From: Natronohydrobacter sp.
Lineage (GTDB): Bacteria > Pseudomonadota > Alphaproteobacteria > Rhodobacterales > Rhodobacteraceae
Assembly: GCA_020832555.1 (NCBI GenBank)
Contig: JAFIEM010000004.1
Coordinates: forward strand, 18,845-82,844
Reading direction: 5' to 3'
Length of the DNA stretch: 64,000 nucleotides
The notes below the pieces were generated by a model that saw only the letters and a list, made by a program, of their open reading frames with translations, searched no databases and was not told the DNA's origin. This document shows positions 7,169 through 16,052 of this stretch, in pieces. Made by a program: the position numbers and the translations under genes. Numbering within the stretch: the stretch's first letter is position 1; the number at the start of each line of letters is the position of its first letter.

Positions 7169-7284
7169 AATGCAGTTCCTGCACAGCGCAGGGCTGCAAA
7201 CACCCTCGGCTTGCGTCGTGGGTGGCAAGGAGAGGAAGCTGTTCCGCTTTGGGACAGCACAGGAGGAAAACTGGGAGACGTCAC

Positions 7285-7539
7285 ATGTCAGACAAGTCGA
7301 CAGACGCCTACTGGAAGGCCAATGTGCGCATCATCACCATCTGCATGGTGATCTGGGCGCTGGTGTCCTTCGGGTTTGGTATCGTATTTCGCCCGCTTCT
7401 GGCGGGTATTCCGATCGGAGGAACCGATCTGGGGTTCTGGTTCGCGCAGCAGGGGTCGATGCTGACCTTCATCGCTCTGATCTTTTATTACCGCTCTTAC
7501 ATGAACAAACTCGACAAAGAGTTTGGCGTGGAAGAGTGA
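7285..7539 (+). CDS. DUF4212 small membrane subunit of sodium/solute symporter
   Basis: The protein has 84 residues and two hydrophobic segments (about 15-37 and 50-68), ending in a charged tail. It matches the DUF4212 family, small proteins encoded directly before a VC_2705-type sodium/solute symporter and thought to be its accessory subunit. The start at 7285 has GGGAG about nine bases upstream; the ORF-track start at 7162 adds a non-conserved leader. The stop codon lies 12 bp before the symporter gene, indicating one operon. Confidence 0.88.
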   Translation: MSDKSTDAYWKANVRIITICMVIWALVSFGFGIVFRPLLAGIPIGGTDLGFWFAQQGSMLTFIALIFYYRSYMNKLDKEFGVEE

Positions 7540-7551
7540 GGGGGATAATCC

Positions 7552-9318
7552 ATGGATCAGTATATTCTTAACCTGATTTTCGTGGGCGGTTCATTCGCCC
7601 TCTATATCGGGATCGCGATCTGGGCCCGCGCTGGCTCGACCTCGGACTTCTACGCGGCTTCGCGTGGCGTCAACCCGGTTGTCAACGGTGCCGCAACTGC
7701 GGCTGACTGGATGTCGGCGGCCTCCTTTATCTCGATGGCCGGTCTGATTGCGGCTGTCGGCTATGGCAACTCGACCTTCCTGATGGGCTGGACGGGCGGC
7801 TATGTGCTTCTGGCCATGCTTCTTGCACCCTATCTGCGCAAGTTCGGCCGCTTCACTGTGCCTGACTTCATCGGCGACCGTTTCTACAGCCAGACCGCGC
7901 GTCTGGTGGCAGTTATCTCGCTGCTGATCATCTCGATCACCTACGTTATCGGGCAGATGACCGGGGCCGCCGTCGCCTTCTCGCGCTTCCTGGAAGTGAC
8001 GAACCAGACGGGCCTGTTCATCGCATCGGGCGTCGTGTTCTGCTATGCCGTTCTTGGCGGCATGAAGGGCATCACCTACACCCAGCTTGCACAGTATGTC
8101 GTGCTGATCATCGCCTATACCATCCCGGCGGTCTTCATCTCGTTCCAGCTGACCGGCAATCCGATCCCGCAGCTTGGCCTCTGGAGCACGCACACAGGTT
8201 CGGGTGAGCCGCTTCTTGCGACGCTGAACTCCGTCCTGATGGATCTCGGCTTCAACGACTACACCGGCAACCATGGCTCGACCTTCAACATGGTTCTGTT
8301 TACCATGTCGCTGATGGTTGGCACCGCCGGTTTGCCTCACGTCATCATCCGCTTCTTCACCGTGCCGCGCGTGGCTGATGCCCGTACTTCGGCTGGCTGG
8401 GCGCTGGTGTTCATCGCGCTGCTCTACACGGTCGCTCCGGCTGTGGGTGCCATGGCGCGCCTGAACATCATCACGACCCTCTGGCCGCAGGGCATTGAAG
8501 GCGAGCCTCTGGCATTCGACGCCAAGCCCGACTGGATGCTGAACTGGGAACGTACGGGTCTGCTGCGCTTTGAAGACAAGAACGGCGATGGCCTGATCCA
8601 GTACTACAACCAGGCGAATCCGCCCGCCCGCGCGATCGAAGAGGGCTGGGAAGGCAACGAGATGGTGCTGTTCAACAACGACATCCTCGTTCTGGCCAAT
8701 CCCGAGATTGCACAGCTTCCAGGCTGGGTGATCGGTCTGATCGCGGCAGGTGGTCTTGCGGCTGCTCTGTCCACGGCGGCTGGTCTGCTGCTGGCCATCT
8801 CTTCGGCTGTGTCGCATGACTTGCTCAAGAAGATGATCATGCCGCAGATCTCGGAAAAGGCCGAGCTGATGGCCGCGCGCGTCTCGATGGCCTTTGCCAT
8901 TGCGCTTGCGACATGGTTGGGCCTCAACCCTCCGGGCTTTGCCGCGCAGGTGGTGGCTCTGGCCTTCGGTCTGGCGGCTGCATCGCTCTTCCCGGCGATC
9001 ATGATGGGCATCTTCTCGAAGAAGATGAACTCGACGGGTGCCATCGTGGGGATGCTGGTCGGTCTGCTTTCGACCGTGCTTTACATCTTCACCTATCTGG
9101 GCTGGTTCTTCATCCCCGGCACCAACATGCTGGCCAACACGCCTGACAACTGGCTGTTTGGCATCTCGCCGCTGTCCTTCGGGACTGTGGGTGCGGCCCT
9201 GAACTTCGCAGCGGCCTACATCACGCTGTCGATGACCAAGGAAGCGCCTGCCGAAATCCAGGAACTGGTCGAGTCGATCCGTGTGCCGAAAGGTGCCGGC
9301 GCGGCGGTCGATCACTGA
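7552..9318 (+). CDS. Sodium/solute symporter (SSF, VC_2705/ActP-like)
   Basis: The 588-residue integral membrane protein has about 13 predicted transmembrane segments and the SSF family core, including 'AADWMSAASFISMAGLI' (about 57-73) and 'GTAGLPHVIIRFFTVP'. It belongs to the branch paired with DUF4212, related to the acetate permease ActP, so acetate or another small organic anion is a likely substrate. A hydrophilic loop at about 340-365 contains 'DKNGDGLIQYYN', a calcium EF-hand-like loop that I recall as typical of this subfamily. GAGGGGG precedes the ATG. The genes downstream are regulators, which fits a transport-and-sensing unit. Confidence 0.92.
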   Translation: MDQYILNLIFVGGSFALYIGIAIWARAGSTSDFYAASRGVNPVVNGAATAADWMSAASFISMAGLIAAVGYGNSTFLMGWTGGYVLLAMLLAPYLRKFGRFTVPDFIGDRFYSQTARLVAVISLLIISITYVIGQMTGAAVAFSRFLEVTNQTGLFIASGVVFCYAVLGGMKGITYTQLAQYVVLIIAYTIPAVFISFQLTGNPIPQLGLWSTHTGSGEPLLATLNSVLMDLGFNDYTGNHGSTFNMVLFTMSLMVGTAGLPHVIIRFFTVPRVADARTSAGWALVFIALLYTVAPAVGAMARLNIITTLWPQGIEGEPLAFDAKPDWMLNWERTGLLRFEDKNGDGLIQYYNQANPPARAIEEGWEGNEMVLFNNDILVLANPEIAQLPGWVIGLIAAGGLAAALSTAAGLLLAISSAVSHDLLKKMIMPQISEKAELMAARVSMAFAIALATWLGLNPPGFAAQVVALAFGLAAASLFPAIMMGIFSKKMNSTGAIVGMLVGLLSTVLYIFTYLGWFFIPGTNMLANTPDNWLFGISPLSFGTVGAALNFAAAYITLSMTKEAPAEIQELVESIRVPKGAGAAVDH

Positions 9319-9402: not shown

Positions 9403-11229
9403 ATGACTGACATCTCGCCCAAGGTTCTGGAATTTCTTCAGAACGTGCATCCTTACGATTCTCTGCCGCAGGACGAGCTGGCGCGTGTCGCCAGTTGCTT
9501 CAGCCGCAGCGAAGTGCCCGCGGGCACGGTGGTCTATTCGGCTGGTGATCCGATCACCGGGGTCTATCTGGTGAAATCCGGCACCGTTGAGGTGACTGAT
9601 ACGCATGGCGCGTTGGTTTCGATGCTCAGCCCGCGCAATTCTTTCGGCGAGCGTGGTCTGTTGCGCGACGGGCTGGCTGTGACCACTGCGACCACGACAT
9701 CGGATGCGGTGCTGTTGTGTTTGCCCGCCGATGAGTTGCGCCATCTGATCGCGAATTTCCCGGCATTCGAGCGGTTCTTCAGTCGCGGCAAGAGCGGAGC
9801 CGCCGCACGCCAGAATGATCTGGCAACGCTGAAAGTTGCGGATCTGATGGCGCGCAAACCGTTGAGCGTGACCACCACGACCACGGCGCAGCAGGCCGCG
9901 CAACTGATGCGAGAGCACCGGTTTTCCTGCGTGCCGGTGGTCGAGGGTGAAAAGCTTGTGGGCATTGTCACCACACGCGATCTGTCTGGCCGTGTTCTGG
10001 CCGAAGGGCGTCCGCCGGAAACACCCTTGGCCGAGATCATGACGCCTGATCCCCTGGCGCTCAGCCCGCAATCTTTGGGATCAGACATTCTGCATATGAT
10101 GCTGGAAAACCGCATCGGGCATTTGCCGGTGGTGCGGGATGGCAAGTTGCTGGGCATGATCACCCAGACGGATCTGACACGGTTTCAGGCGATCAGTTCC
10201 GGTCAGCTTGTGCGTGATGCCGCCGTCGCGGATACGTTCGAGGCGCTGGCAAGTGTCACCAGCCGTATTCCGCAACTGCTGGTGCAACTGGTCGGTGCAC
10301 ATAATGCACATGAGGTCGTGACCCGTCTGATCACCGATATTGCCGACACTGTGACGCGACGCCTGCTGAAACTGGGCGAAGAGAAGCTTGGCCCGCCCCC
10401 GGTGCCCTATCTCTGGGCGGCCTGTGGCAGCCAGGGTCGACAAGAGCAGACCGGGGTCAGCGATCAGGACAACTGCATCATCATTGATGACAATGTGACA
10501 CCTGACGACATGGCCTATTTCACCGATCTTGCGCGTTTCGTGTCTGACGGGCTGAATGCGGCTGGATATTTCTACTGTCCGGGCGACATGATGGCGACCA
10601 ATCCGCGTTGGTGCCAGCCCGTGAATGTCTGGCGGCGCTATTTCAGGGGCTGGATCAACTCGCCTTCGCCCGAAGCGCAGATGCTGGCCTCTGTCATGTT
10701 CGACCTGCGCCCGATTGGCGGGCAGGTCAGCCTGTTCCGCGATTTGCAGGAAGAAACGCTGGCCGCTGCGAGCAAGAACTCGATTTTCGTGGCGCATATG
10801 GTCTCGAATTCGGTCAAGCACGCGCCGCCGTTGGGTCTGTTGCGCAGCTTTGCCACGATCCGCTCGGGCGAACACAAGAACCATGTGGATATGAAGCTCG
10901 GTGGCGTTGTGCCGGTCACTGATCTTGCGCGCGTTTATGCGCTACGGGGCCGCATTTCGGCGGCCAATACGCGCGCGCGCCTGATGGCGGCAGAAGAGCA
11001 GGGGATCATCTCTGTTTCTGGCGCGCGCGATCTGATTGAGGCTTATGATCTGATCGCCAATTTGCGACTGGAAAACCAGGCCAATCTGGTGCGCATGGGC
11101 CGCAAACCGGACAATTTTCTTGCGCCGTCCGATCTGTCGGATTTCGAGCGCAGCCATTTGCGCGACGCGTTTGTTGTCGTGCGCACCATGCAATCTGCAG
11201 TCGGCCAGCTGGCCGGCACTCTGGGCTGA
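9403..11229 (+). CDS. cNMP-binding / CBS-pair / DUF294 nucleotidyltransferase-like regulator
   Basis: The 608-residue soluble protein carries, in order, a cyclic-nucleotide-binding domain (about 1-125), two CBS domains (about 143-265), a DUF294 putative nucleotidyltransferase domain (about 295-430) with 'GSQGRQEQTGVSDQDN' around 341-356, and a DUF294 C-terminal helical domain (to about 600). The layout resembles GlnD-type nucleotidyltransferases combined with adenylate-sensing CBS and cNMP modules. Proteins of this design are commonly encoded next to the DUF4212/SSF pair and an exonuclease. It probably senses nucleotide state and modifies an unknown partner. The target, and whether it is active, cannot be told from sequence. 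Confidence 0.87.
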   Translation: MTDISPKVLEFLQNVHPYDSLPQDELARVASCFSRSEVPAGTVVYSAGDPITGVYLVKSGTVEVTDTHGALVSMLSPRNSFGERGLLRDGLAVTTATTTSDAVLLCLPADELRHLIANFPAFERFFSRGKSGAAARQNDLATLKVADLMARKPLSVTTTTTAQQAAQLMREHRFSCVPVVEGEKLVGIVTTRDLSGRVLAEGRPPETPLAEIMTPDPLALSPQSLGSDILHMMLENRIGHLPVVRDGKLLGMITQTDLTRFQAISSGQLVRDAAVADTFEALASVTSRIPQLLVQLVGAHNAHEVVTRLITDIADTVTRRLLKLGEEKLGPPPVPYLWAACGSQGRQEQTGVSDQDNCIIIDDNVTPDDMAYFTDLARFVSDGLNAAGYFYCPGDMMATNPRWCQPVNVWRRYFRGWINSPSPEAQMLASVMFDLRPIGGQVSLFRDLQEETLAAASKNSIFVAHMVSNSVKHAPPLGLLRSFATIRSGEHKNHVDMKLGGVVPVTDLARVYALRGRISAANTRARLMAAEEQGIISVSGARDLIEAYDLIANLRLENQANLVRMGRKPDNFLAPSDLSDFERSHLRDAFVVVRTMQSAVGQLAGTLG

Positions 11230-11240
11230 AAGGAACGCGC

Positions 11241-11789
11241 GTGATTCTGGAATTTCTGGCAGTCATAGTGGCAGGGTTTGGTGGTGGCGGAACCGCCATG
11301 ATCCTGCGGCGTCTGAGTGGTCGACGCCTGCCGGAATGGCTGACGCCGGCCGGAGTTGCCGCAGGCATGCTCGCCATGGTGATCTATCTCGAATATTCCT
11401 GGGCGCCGCGCTATGAGGCTGGCCTGCCGCCCGATGTCACGGTCGTCAGCAAGAACCAGCATGTTTCCTGGATGCGCCCCTGGACCTATGCGTTTCCGCT
11501 GACCAACCGGATCATCGCGGTCGATAATCGCATCCGGCAGCGCAACACGCGCAATCCCGATCTGGTTCTGACAGGGGTGATCCTGCAAGAGCGCTGGGCG
11601 CTGACCATGGGCTTTCAGTCTATGTTCGATTGCGCCAACGCCCGCCGTGCCGATCTGACCGAGGCCACTGTGCTGGATGAACTGGGGGTTCCCGTCGCCG
11701 CTGAGTGGTATGCGCTGTCCCCCGATGACCGTTTTCTGACGACTGCTTGTGAAGGAGGAGCACATGGAGGACACGTCGAGGAAGGCTGA
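11241..11789 (+). CDS. Hypothetical membrane-anchored protein
   Basis: A GTG start with GAAAGGA upstream opens a 182-residue protein with two hydrophobic segments (about 2-20 and 35-54) and a soluble remainder. I do not recognise the family. It lies 11 bp after the DUF294 gene and its 3' end overlaps the response-regulator gene by 26 bp, so it is co-transcribed with both. A role as a membrane partner in this signalling operon is only a guess. Confidence 0.7.
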   Translation: MILEFLAVIVAGFGGGGTAMILRRLSGRRLPEWLTPAGVAAGMLAMVIYLEYSWAPRYEAGLPPDVTVVSKNQHVSWMRPWTYAFPLTNRIIAVDNRIRQRNTRNPDLVLTGVILQERWALTMGFQSMFDCANARRADLTEATVLDELGVPVAAEWYALSPDDRFLTTACEGGAHGGHVEEG

Positions 11790-12186
11790 AATTCTGGTGG
11801 TCGAGGACGAGGATAATATCGCCATCGCCCTCAACTACCTTCTGACCCGCGAGGGCTATAACCAGACCCGTATCGCAACCGGAGAGGGGGCGGTGGAGCT
11901 GATCCGCAAGAGCAAGCCTGATCTGGTCTTACTGGATGTGATGCTGCCGGTCGTTTCGGGGTATGAGATCTGTCAATCCGTGCGCGCCGATCCCGACTGC
12001 AAGGGCGTGCGTATCCTGATGATGACGGCACGCGGTTCGGCGATGGAGCGCCGCAAGGGGCTTGCGATGGGGGCGGATGGGTTCATTTCGAAACCTTTCG
12101 AGTTGAAGGAATTGCGCGAAGAGGTGCGCAAGATCCTGGCAGGAGAAACCAGCGATTTGCCACATACAGGCGTTGCGGATGCTTGA
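11764..12186 (+). CDS. Single-domain response regulator
   Basis: The 140-residue protein is a lone receiver domain with no DNA-binding output. Key residues are visible: acidic pair 'EDED' (14-17), phosphoacceptor Asp58 in 'VLLDVMLP', the Thr in 'MMTARG', and the Lys in 'SKPF'. The start at 11764 has the excellent RBS AAGGAGGAG; the longer GTG start in the ORF track would bury it. It is translationally coupled upstream (26-bp overlap) and overlaps the next gene by eight bases (ATGCTTGA). The neighbouring kinase-like protein lacks its phosphoacceptor His, so the phosphodonor is probably another kinase. Confidence 0.93.
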   Translation: MEDTSRKAEILVVEDEDNIAIALNYLLTREGYNQTRIATGEGAVELIRKSKPDLVLLDVMLPVVSGYEICQSVRADPDCKGVRILMMTARGSAMERRKGLAMGADGFISKPFELKELREEVRKILAGETSDLPHTGVADA

Positions 12187-14266
12187 CCGCCTGAGCCTGC
12201 GTATCCGAATCCTGTTGTTCTTCGTGGCGCTTGCCGGAGGGGCGGTGCTTGCGACGGCACTGGGGGGATGGTTGGTCCTGTCGCGCGCCGACCAGCCCGA
12301 ACTTGCAGGGCCGATGCTGCAGGCCGGGATCCTGAGTGGGTTCCTGATCCTGTTTCTTGTCACCGGTATCTGGTATCTCTTCGATGCCAATGTCGCCCGC
12401 GCGATTGAAGCGCTGGCGAATGCGATCCGCACCCGCGCTGTGACCGATGTGAATGAGGATATCGGAGCCGAGCGCGAGAAGGCGCGGTATCTGGGCGATC
12501 TTGCCCCTGCCGCAGCGGCCATCACGCGCTCGTTGTCCGAGACCCGCTCTGCGCTGGCCGAGTCGGTGGCGCGCGAGACCTCGCGCCTGTCAGCCGAGAA
12601 ATCGCGGCTGGAGAAACTGCTCGCTGATGTGCCCGTGGCCGTGCTGCTTTGCACAGCGGATTATCAGCTTGTGTTCTACAACGGGCAGGCTGTGAACGTG
12701 CTGGAAGCGGGCGGGGCGCCCGGGCTTGACCGGAACCTGCTGGACTACCTGCGCGAAGGCCCGGTGCGCCACGCCTATGAGCGTCTGAGCAAACTCAACG
12801 ACCCCGAAGCCGCGTCGGACCTGATCTGCGCAACCACCGGGACCGGACGCCTGCTCTCGGGCCGGATGCGCGTGTTGCGGCGCACCGACAGCACACGCCG
12901 CCCTGGATTCGTGCTGACGCTGCGCGATGTCACAACCGATCTCGCGGCCCATGCTGCGCGTGAAGCCTTGCTGGCGGAAGTCTTCGACCGGGTGCGCCGC
13001 CCGGCGGCCAACCTGCAAACCGTGATCGGCGTGCTGTCGGAAGACAGCGAGATGGCGCAGAATGAAGACCTGACACGCGCGATGATGGCAGAGATCCGGA
13101 TTCTGTCCGGTGCGATCACGGAACTGGGTGCGCGCTATGATGCAGGACGCAGCGACTGGCGCCCGCAAAGCCAGATCCGCGCGGCTGATCTGATGGATGC
13201 GGTCAACGCGCAGTTCGACGCTTCCGATCTGGCATTGGAGGTTGATGGTCCCGATCTGATTCTGACCTGCGACGGGTTTGAGTTGGCGCTGCTGTTCCGC
13301 TGGCTGGGCGAGAAACTGGCAGCAAGCGGTCATGCGCGCAGCTTCCGCCTGTGTTTGAGCGAAGAGGATGGCCCCGGTGCGGTGTTTGATCTGGTCTGGC
13401 AAGGTGCCACGTTGCCTGTGGGCGAGTTTGATGCCTGGCTCGGGGAGCAGATGGATCCCGATATTCCCGACCTCACCGCGCGCGCGGTCCTGAATGCGCA
13501 TGCGACCGAAGCCTGGACCGAAGCGCGCTCCGATGGCAAGGCGTCGGTACGTCTGCCAATCCCCAATGCGCGCCGCGCCACAACTCGCCCCGCGCCGATC
13601 CAGCGCGAGGTGGTTTACGACTTCGAACTCTTGTCCAAGGAACGCAATGCGGGCGTGCTGGAAAGCAGGCTGGAAGATCTGACCTATGTGGTCTTTGACA
13701 CCGAGACCACGGGCCTGATGCCCTCCAGCGACGAGATCGTGCAGATTGCCGCCGTACGTGTGGTCAATGGTCGTCGCGTACAGCGCGAGGTGTTTGACAC
13801 GCTGGTTGATCCGCAGCGACCGATCCCGCAAAGCTCGACCGAAGTGCATGGCATTACAGAGGAAATGGTCAAGGGCGCGCCCACCATTTCAAACGCCGGG
13901 AAGAAGTTCCATGAATTTGCACGCGGCGCCGTTCTTGTCGCGCATAATGCGCCTTTTGACATGGAGTTTCTGCGTCGTCATGAGAAGGATATCGGCGCAA
14001 GCTTCGATCATCCGGTGCTGGATACGGTGCTTTTGTCAGCAGTTGTCTATGGCCAGTTGGAACAGCATTCGCTTGATGCGCTTACGGCGCGTTTGGGAAT
14101 CACCATACCGGAAGAAGCGCGGCATACGGCCATTGGCGATACTGTCGCGACAGCGGATGCGTTTCTGAAGCTGATCCCGATTCTCAAATCCCGCGGCCTC
14201 GAAACCTTTGGAGATGTGCTGACGGAAGTGCGCAGACATGGACGCTTGCTCAAGGATCTGAACTGA
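12179..14266 (+). CDS. Membrane PAS/degenerate histidine kinase fused to DEDDh 3'-5' exonuclease
   Basis: The 695-residue protein starts with two transmembrane helices (about 10-32 and 45-67), then a HAMP-like/coiled region, a PAS domain (about 150-270) and a histidine-kinase-like region in which the expected 'HELRTP' reads 'DRVRRP', so the phosphoacceptor His is missing. The last 190 residues are a DNA polymerase III epsilon-type exonuclease: 'VVFDTETTG' (Exo I), 'LVAHNAPFDMEF' (Exo II) and 'HTAIGDTVAT' (Exo III, DEDDh). The exonuclease looks catalytically complete. The start overlaps the response-regulator stop. A membrane-tethered nuclease controlled by a pseudokinase sensor is the inference; the substrate is unknown. 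Confidence 0.88.
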   Translation: MLDRLSLRIRILLFFVALAGGAVLATALGGWLVLSRADQPELAGPMLQAGILSGFLILFLVTGIWYLFDANVARAIEALANAIRTRAVTDVNEDIGAEREKARYLGDLAPAAAAITRSLSETRSALAESVARETSRLSAEKSRLEKLLADVPVAVLLCTADYQLVFYNGQAVNVLEAGGAPGLDRNLLDYLREGPVRHAYERLSKLNDPEAASDLICATTGTGRLLSGRMRVLRRTDSTRRPGFVLTLRDVTTDLAAHAAREALLAEVFDRVRRPAANLQTVIGVLSEDSEMAQNEDLTRAMMAEIRILSGAITELGARYDAGRSDWRPQSQIRAADLMDAVNAQFDASDLALEVDGPDLILTCDGFELALLFRWLGEKLAASGHARSFRLCLSEEDGPGAVFDLVWQGATLPVGEFDAWLGEQMDPDIPDLTARAVLNAHATEAWTEARSDGKASVRLPIPNARRATTRPAPIQREVVYDFELLSKERNAGVLESRLEDLTYVVFDTETTGLMPSSDEIVQIAAVRVVNGRRVQREVFDTLVDPQRPIPQSSTEVHGITEEMVKGAPTISNAGKKFHEFARGAVLVAHNAPFDMEFLRRHEKDIGASFDHPVLDTVLLSAVVYGQLEQHSLDALTARLGITIPEEARHTAIGDTVATADAFLKLIPILKSRGLETFGDVLTEVRRHGRLLKDLN

Positions 14267-14298: not shown

Positions 14299-14348
14299 CA
14301 AAGCCTGCAAGGCTGTCGCTATGCACCATTGCGGCGAGGAGCTTGCGC

Positions 14349-16052
14349 ATGACGGACGCGATCTTGTTGAGCTTGACCATAGTGACTTCGGCAAGTCTGG
14401 TCTTGCTGGGCAGTCTGGCGATGTTCGCAGGTCTATCGCGCGGCAGATCACAGTCAGAGATCAGTTTTGGCCCCGCGGATCAGGACGCTGTGTTCATCTT
14501 TCGCGAAAAAGCCCTGGTCGATTGTTCGGAACAGGGACAGAAGCTGCTCGATATGCTGGCGGAGAAAGGGGAAGCCACCCGCAGATCCGCGATCTGGACG
14601 CGGTTGCGTGCCTATCTTGACCCTCGGTTTCCGGATCTGGAGCCGACGCTGGAGGGTCTGTTAGGAAGCGGGCAAGCGGAACTGCAATCGATCATGGGGG
14701 ACGGGCTGGTTCTCGGGCTGCGCTACTGGAATGGTCTGATTCATCTGCGGCTGACGGATACCTCTGCCGAAGGGGCACTTGTCGCGATCGACAGGCTGAG
14801 TTTCAACGCGCTGCAGAACGAACTCCGGACGCTGCGCAGCGTTGCGCGCAACGCTCCGGCCCTTGTCTGGAAGACCGATGCAGATGGGCGCGTGATCTGG
14901 GCCAATTCTGCCTATCTCAAGACCGTTCAGCAGACGACGCCGGAAGATACAGAACTGACATGGCCGTTGCCGTCTCTGTTCGGTGACGCAGGCAGTGCCG
15001 GAAAGGGACGGCTCGCGTTGCAGCAGGATGAGGTTTTGCGCTGGTTCGCTCATTCCGAGGTCGAGTGCGATGGCCAGACCCTGCATTTCGCGGTGCCAAT
15101 CGACTCGACCGTGCAGTCCGAGGTGGCAAGACGGGAAACCCTTCAGACCCTGACGCGCACCTTTGCTTGCCTGCCGATTGGGCTTGCCTTGTTCGACGCC
15201 GAGCGCAGGTTGCAAGTTTTCAACCCCGCGCTGATTGATCTTACCGGGCTGGAGCCATTGTTCCTGGCGGCGCGCCCGAGTTTCGAACAGGTTCTCTATG
15301 CGTTGCGCGAGAAACGGATGTTGCCGGAACCCAAGGATTTCCAGAACTGGCGACGTGAGATCATCGAGATGGAAAAAGCAGCCGAGACAGGGGAATATGC
15401 CGAAGAATGGTGCCTTGACGGAGGGCGCATCTTCTACGTCACCGGGCGTCCGCAGCCCAATGGCGCCATAGCGCTTTTCATCGAGGATGTAACAACCGAA
15501 GCTGCCTTGACCCGGAACTTTCGCAATGAAATCGAGACAGTGCATCATGTTCTGGATGCTCTGGGTGACGGCATTGCTGTCTTCGGCCTGTCTGGTCAGG
15601 CGCTGCTTGCCAATGCGGGATATACACGGCTCTGGAACTCCGATCCCTGTGTTGATCTGGCGGATGAGGGCTTGGCACAGGCTTTGGCACTCTGGTCGAA
15701 TGCCTGCGCGCCGACGACTTTCTGGGCGCGGCTGGCAGAATTCGTGACCAGATCCGACACACATGAGGAAATCAACGGTTCGGCAGCCTTGCGCACAGGC
15801 ATACCTCTTGCGCTGCGCGCCCGCCGGCTGTCTGGCGGTGCGGTGATGGTGGTGTTTCAGCCACTGGCGCAAGGACTCTTGTCGCAGCGCCCTGATCTTG
15901 CCCTGCAAGCCGAACTGATCGGCAGACAGGATCTTGCAGGACACTCGCAGGAACGGGCCGTGCAAAGCGCTACGACAAATGATCCGGCGCGACTGCTGCC
16001 CTCTCGCAAACCGCGCACAGCGCGTCACACGGGCACCCGAATGCGCGTCTGA
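14349..16052 (+). CDS. divL: DivL-like membrane protein with PAS domains
   Basis: The 567-residue protein has one N-terminal transmembrane helix (about 2-25) and two or three PAS domains, seen at about 170-260 ('ALVWKTDADGRVIWANSAYL'), 275-390 and 395-500 ('VLDALGDGIAVFG'). It ends soon after the last PAS domain, with no HisKA or HATPase domain. In Caulobacter and Rhodobacter, as I recall, DivL is a PAS protein in the CckA-ChpT-CtrA phosphorelay, and tsaE is its neighbour, as here. A CtrA box in the promoter fits feedback control. GAGGAG is spaced eight bases from the chosen ATG. The name rests on architecture and synteny, so it is moderately sure. Confidence 0.65.
   Translation: MTDAILLSLTIVTSASLVLLGSLAMFAGLSRGRSQSEISFGPADQDAVFIFREKALVDCSEQGQKLLDMLAEKGEATRRSAIWTRLRAYLDPRFPDLEPTLEGLLGSGQAELQSIMGDGLVLGLRYWNGLIHLRLTDTSAEGALVAIDRLSFNALQNELRTLRSVARNAPALVWKTDADGRVIWANSAYLKTVQQTTPEDTELTWPLPSLFGDAGSAGKGRLALQQDEVLRWFAHSEVECDGQTLHFAVPIDSTVQSEVARRETLQTLTRTFACLPIGLALFDAERRLQVFNPALIDLTGLEPLFLAARPSFEQVLYALREKRMLPEPKDFQNWRREIIEMEKAAETGEYAEEWCLDGGRIFYVTGRPQPNGAIALFIEDVTTEAALTRNFRNEIETVHHVLDALGDGIAVFGLSGQALLANAGYTRLWNSDPCVDLADEGLAQALALWSNACAPTTFWARLAEFVTRSDTHEEINGSAALRTGIPLALRARRLSGGAVMVVFQPLAQGLLSQRPDLALQAELIGRQDLAGHSQERAVQSATTNDPARLLPSRKPRTARHTGTRMRV

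Follow-up and report, generated by a model that had tools for sequence, protein, structure and literature searches.

A dead histidine-kinase module fused to a membrane-anchored DEDDh exonuclease is probably a response-regulator reader

What does a nuclease do at the end of a sensor kinase that has lost its kinase chemistry? This question is raised by a gene in a 64,000-nucleotide stretch of DNA from Natronohydrobacter sp. (contig JAFIEM010000004.1; hereafter, the window), which runs from an ATG at 12179 to a stop at 14266, the mechanically called open reading frame beginning at a TTG at 12173. A preliminary description had read the product as a degenerate histidine kinase joined to a complete DEDDh exonuclease, i.e., a membrane sensor with a degradative output. 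Pfam detected only RNase_T (E 8.8e-39) and a weak PAS domain in the 695-aa protein, and found neither HisKA nor HATPase_c in it. A profile built from 50 diverse homologues matched VicK with its positions 67-461, spanning HAMP-PAS-DHp-CA (E 1.7e-24), as well as the PolC exonuclease (E 2.2e-48), and PDB profile searches matched the TM2-HAMP of NpHtrII and the PAS domains of DosP and WalK. The AlphaFold2 model was confident throughout (mean pLDDT 87.8, pTM 0.72) and contained two TM helices, HAMP-like helices into which the second TM helix continues (to about residue 149), a PAS domain, a two-helix DHp hairpin, a CA-like sandwich and the exonuclease (Table 1). Foldseek placed WalK (3.3e-16) and the PolC, DinG and epsilon exonucleases as the best matches of this model, while the best solved match of the kinase-like module was DivL (4q20, E 8.7e-12). 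The structure prediction and the VicK, DivL and WalK matches thus bear out a histidine-kinase ancestry for the DHp hairpin and CA alpha/beta sandwich, as well as the membrane segments and PAS domain that the preliminary description took to be kept, and the protein is predicted to be a complete sensor-kinase chassis ending in a nuclease.

Table 1 Features of the exonuclease locus, in positions of the window
Feature	Coordinates	Strand	Basis or size
DUF4212 small symporter subunit	7282..7539	+	TIGR03647, PF13937
VC_2705-type sodium:solute (acetate-like) symporter	7552..9318	+	TIGR03648, 804 bits
cNMP-CBS-CBS-DUF294 nucleotidyltransferase, intact GSxGRxE...SDQDN	9403..11229	+	Pfam, conservation
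Membrane protein, no known family	11241..11789	+	No Pfam/NCBIfam match; synteny
Stand-alone CheY-like response regulator (RR)	11764..12186	+	Pfam Response_reg, 9.5e-27
TM-HAMP-PAS-pseudo-histidine-kinase-DEDDh exonuclease, whole gene	12179..14266	+	695 aa
Two membrane helices, residues 7-35 and 43-88	12197..12442	+	AlphaFold2, profile matches
PAS domain, residues 143-252	12605..12934	+	Weak Pfam PAS_4/PAS, PDB profiles, fold
DHp-like helical hairpin without phospho-His, residues 252-327	12932..13159	+	Fold, profile matches
D270 codon at phospho-acceptor position	12986..12988	+	Homologue alignments
CA-like (HATPase) domain, residues 331-466, ATP boxes lost	13169..13576	+	SLC5-HK alignment, fold
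DEDDh (RNase_T/DnaQ) 3'-5' exonuclease domain, residues 504-662	13688..14164	+	Pfam, profiles, Foldseek

The exonuclease half was rightly called complete: all five catalytic residues of ExoI-III (D507, E509, D594, H649 and D654) are present and invariant in 50/50 homologues. From this active site we infer a nuclease output, although the domain may be used otherwise, e.g., to reverse a nucleotidylation made by the neighbouring DUF294 enzyme. One rival reading is a conventional DnaQ-type enzyme for DNA proofreading or repair that is only incidentally tethered to the membrane. Among solved structures, the exonuclease stands nearest to those of PolC and Pol III epsilon (2p1j and 1j53), with which it has the DEDDh fold and the catalytic residues in common (37-39% identical to 2p1j when searched by structure), and its PADLOC, PHROGs and NCBIfam matches are all generic DnaQ/DEDDh. 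However, its score against the NCBIfam model dnaQ_proteo lies far under the cut-off (TIGR01406; 105.1 vs 222.7 bits), and unlike PolC and epsilon it has a membrane anchor and sensor modules in a signalling architecture, with no polymerase or Pol III context. Its conserved neighbours are a symporter, a DUF294 gene and an RR gene, not repair genes, and an RNase_T family member, PP_0353 of Pseudomonas putida, acts in pyruvate use, growth of the PP_0353 mutant with added DNA being unaffected (PMC9927547). We regard a plain proofreading or repair role as most improbable. A role in anti-phage defence was also rejected, since the defence search gave generic DEDDh matches only. Within the limited set of literature searched, no pertinent account of an HK, PAS or HAMP protein with a DnaQ output was found.

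The kinase-like half is conserved in a different way. The segment FDRVRRPAANL (residues 269-279) aligns with the H-box THELRTPLTSI such that D270 occupies the phospho-His position, and among the 50 diverse homologues this position is Glu in 21, Asp in 20, another residue in nine and His in none (Asp/Glu in 41/50). Loss of the phosphoacceptor His, noted earlier from DRVRRP standing for HELRTP, therefore holds across the family. A conserved His elsewhere in the domain would have spoken against that reading; it was looked for in the H-box helix and none was found in the 50 homologues. Alignment of the module to 17 intact SLC5-fused kinases revealed that the ATP boxes are gone as well: the N-box Asn (N379) has mostly given way to Arg/Lys or some other residue, the G1 Asp is Trp (W407) in 49/50 homologues, the ATP lid is deleted in 50/50 and the G2 glycines are lost. 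Thus, the module lacks both a phosphorylatable His in DHp helix 1 and the N, G1, F and G2 boxes of a working kinase. The acidic residue that replaces the His may serve as a permanent phospho-mimic, or may merely block transfer.

A module in this state could be the remnant of a decaying two-component system, in which the kinase half drifts neutrally and is being shed and only the nuclease matters. The kinase half is indeed divergent (75-78% identical in pairs whose exonuclease is 91% identical) and has been lost in roseobacters. We nonetheless think decay very unlikely, because the degenerate part is under purifying selection (dN/dS 0.19-0.20 for DHp and CA, compared with 0.066 for PAS and 0.065 for the exonuclease), R273, E305, W407, G409, W420, H441 and W446 hardly vary among alpha- and other proteobacteria, and the length of full-length relatives is conserved over the phylum. 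These relatives, labelled '3'-5' exonuclease' in public records, occur in Rhodobacterales, in other alphaproteobacterial orders and in other classes of Pseudomonadota. The alignments and substitution rates indicate that the module no longer works as a kinase yet is under selection.

A candidate for what the module binds lies directly upstream, where the 3' end of a stand-alone CheY-like RR gene overlaps the start of the exonuclease gene. The phospho-site of this RR is conserved (Asp in 124/125, Thr in 120/125 and Lys in 124/125). Across 176 loci, 121 have both a DHp and an adjacent RR, 51 have neither, two have the DHp only and two the RR only, so that an RR is adjacent in 121 of the 123 DHp-positive loci. 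Among the four discordant loci, the RR of L165 lies elsewhere in the cluster beside an SLC5 kinase, an RR of this type was not found in the stretch examined for L192, L243 belongs to a clade with a barely detectable DHp, and the RR of L206 is aberrant. On a tree of 99 rows made from the TM, PAS and exonuclease columns (which replaced an exonuclease-only tree that was too poorly supported), module and RR vanished jointly in some three lineages: the roseobacter clade, a DHp-deleted clade and L172/L173. In L172/L173 the module is gone and an RR remains beside an SLC5 kinase. In the DHp-deleted clade the DHp and the RR are gone while the CA part is kept, which points at the DHp as the partner of the RR. 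With about three joint losses, an independent-pairs test had no power (median p 0.5), and the association is thus suggestive rather than statistically independent proof.

Could the module instead be a structural connector, which dimerises and relays TM, HAMP and PAS signals mechanically, with the adjacent RR serving the SLC5 kinase or other targets? Coupling of HAMP-PAS units to outputs is common, and the far stronger constraint on PAS than on DHp/CA fits such a relay. Moreover, RR-exonuclease covariation (MI-APC, 115 pairs, Neff 60) was dominated by clade structure and gave no signal for a DHp-RR interface. Natural RR-exonuclease fusions were absent from the 177 loci. Against a mere connector, however, the RR gene overlaps the exonuclease gene exactly in those loci that have a DHp and disappears along with it, the DHp-deleted clade retains CA and not the RR, and the surroundings of the H-box are still conserved (R273 in 47/50 homologues, P275 in 36/50 and E305 in 47/50). 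We consider a connector without RR input unlikely, though it deserves more weight than decay or proofreading. The module has a non-His residue at the acceptor position and is tied to a single-domain RR with an intact phospho-site, two features of a DivL-type reader. Together with its kinship to SLC5 kinases (see below), its co-occurrence with the adjacent RR suggests that the kinase-like module probably serves to read the response regulator. The preliminary description missed this tie to the overlapping upstream gene. Its picture of a sensor-like protein with an intact nuclease site stands, while the membrane and PAS segments are probably not the sole input.

DivL, the pseudo-histidine kinase by which Caulobacter reads DivK~P, is a precedent, since its kinase domains sense RR input in a phospho-specific manner and keep the N, G1, F and G2 boxes (PMC4211667). 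Both proteins combine a PAS domain with a histidine-kinase transmitter whose phospho-His is replaced, and both are tied to a single-domain response regulator. DivL has Tyr for His, itself lacks an enzymatic output and acts on CckA, whereas the exonuclease protein has Asp/Glu for His, a destroyed ATP site and an attached exonuclease. Because the module has lost the ATP boxes that DivL keeps, signal transmission through its CA part must differ. A DivL homologue also adjoins the exonuclease as the next gene (14343-16052), upstream of tsaE and addB; in this genus it ends before DHp/CA (about 570-600 aa, with a conserved tail), while in other alphaproteobacteria it has 812-875 aa and a VSY-Q/E-LR-T/N-PL H-box.

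Despite this adjacency, origin of the module from DivL was rejected. When nine whole genomes were searched with a profile of the module, the best match after the exonuclease itself was an SLC5-type kinase in 9/9 (44-64 bits), including one genome (G379) where the exonuclease is module-less; in Natronohydrobacter sp. this kinase scored 44.2 bits and the next protein 31.5. The DHp-like hairpin matches the DHp domains of genuine SLC5-HKs at 30-47 bits. In most of the clusters examined outside Rhodobacterales, an intact SLC5-HisKA-HATPase kinase (roughly 900 aa, with an SLC5-like N-terminus followed by HisKA/HATPase_c) is encoded next to the RR and exonuclease, although the SLC5 label rests partly on mutual homology, because several of these kinases match Pfam SSF weakly or below threshold. 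The SLC5 kinase of Natronohydrobacter sp. is unlinked, lying on contig 98 with its own RR alongside (G000:C98:22850-25507); it matches the L172 kinase, which has an SSF Pfam match, over its full length (E 1.1e-219). Among 34 other receivers, the RR beside it comes nearest to that of the exonuclease locus. With the module nearest the SLC5 kinase and its RR nearest the RR beside that kinase, module and RR look like a duplicated kinase-RR pair whose kinase half turned receptor. Presence of an SLC5-fused histidine kinase was uninformative as a predictor of the long exonuclease form because 194/198 genomes of the order have one. Like the exonuclease protein, the SLC5/STAC kinases CrbS (MxtR), CbrA and RpuS have an acetate/pyruvate gene context, and the module's nearest relative is such a kinase, often in the same cluster. 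They are active kinases whose sensor resembles a transporter, whereas the exonuclease protein is a two-TM-HAMP-PAS sensor with a nuclease output and no kinase chemistry.

A second protein with a DHp-like segment was seen beside the RR and SLC5 kinase at three loci (L283:12332-13660, which is on contig 98 of Natronohydrobacter sp., L172:1345-2946 and L173:1466-3052). This is an ScfR-type (short-chain acyl-CoA regulator) transcription factor whose DHp-like segment has a conserved His in 11/11 sequences and no CA part, and it is possibly a second DHp-tagged effector of the same RR.

Shorter exonucleases also exist. The short form (TM-PAS-exonuclease, about 470 aa) is without the kinase-like part, a TM-only form is also without PAS (310-324 aa), and a soluble form has 234 aa. 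All of these occur beside DUF294, which indicates that the core function of the exonuclease needs no RR control. L182, L179, L255, L258 and L259 are intermediates in which the DHp and the RR gene are lost and the CA-like domain is kept. At two loci the same DEDDh exonuclease is fused to an EamA-type transporter (L126:601-2109 and L125:1483-2994; Pfam EamA plus RNase_T); a DUF294 gene is close by, and the transporter represents a different choice of membrane module.

The DUF294 nucleotidyltransferase is a constant companion of the exonuclease, with a gene nearby in 169/177 loci and key motif residues invariant in 167/167. That an enzyme with an invariant motif accompanies all exonuclease forms suggests a nucleotide-adding and nucleotide-removing pair. 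The 180-aa membrane protein encoded between the DUF294 and RR/exonuclease genes occurs in Rhodobacterales only and is kept even where the RR and kinase-like module are lost. In Paracoccus denitrificans, the cluster comes after acs; in strain PD1222 the locus is PDEN_RS22680-22695. The physiology of a comparable locus has been described in P. putida, where the RNase_T protein PP_0353 is encoded in one operon with PP_0354, a CBS protein. This operon is a target of the CrbS/R-type system MxtR/ErdR, and deletion of PP_0353 delays growth on pyruvate (PMC9927547). PP_0353 is thus a DEDDh/RNase_T exonuclease operonic with a CBS-domain protein, like the exonuclease and DUF294 loci, its kinship to this exonuclease family being drawn from the family name and from the analogous locus L356. 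There, a free-standing 234-aa exonuclease lies beside DUF294 without TM, PAS or kinase-like module, in a PP_0353-like arrangement.

We favor, with somewhat better than even confidence, a circuit in an acetate/pyruvate cluster in which the regulatory half of a membrane-anchored DEDDh 3'-5' exonuclease is a repurposed dead histidine-kinase transmitter. An SLC5-fused (CrbS-like) kinase would sense a small monocarboxylate and phosphorylate the stand-alone CheY-like RR. RR~P would then dock on the pseudo-DHp as DivK~P does on DivL, a step suggested by precedent, homology and co-inheritance, and docking together with TM-HAMP-PAS input would switch the C-terminal exonuclease. The exonuclease would act in one circuit with the cNMP/CBS-regulated DUF294 enzyme and the acetate-type symporter to adjust acetate/pyruvate metabolism. 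The simplest mode would be the trimming of RNA at its 3' ends, and a more speculative one the undoing of a nucleotidylation that DUF294 has placed on a target. More tentatively, an output-less RR may signal by docking on DHp modules that descend from its cognate kinase and are fused to different effectors, namely the DEDDh exonuclease (His replaced by Asp/Glu) and the short-chain-fatty-acyl regulator-type factor (His kept, no CA); we hold this broader idea to be plausible at best. If it is true, kinase docking domains would serve as transferable tags through which effectors join a single phospho-relay, the membrane nuclease and DUF294 nucleotidyltransferase pair being a metabolic output.

To our knowledge, few pseudo-histidine kinases are understood. 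Here, one is fused to a nuclease in a single chain, in contrast to DivL, which acts on another kinase, and this fusion makes the idea of an RR-driven enzyme controlled via a dead kinase directly testable. If the proposed circuit is true, two-component sensing of acetate/pyruvate would be coupled to the processing of nucleic acids or nucleotides with no transcriptional step in between. The circuit would also assign a biochemical function to the exonuclease/DUF294 pair, which is uncharacterised although it occurs throughout Pseudomonadota, and might account for the poor growth of the nuclease mutant on pyruvate.
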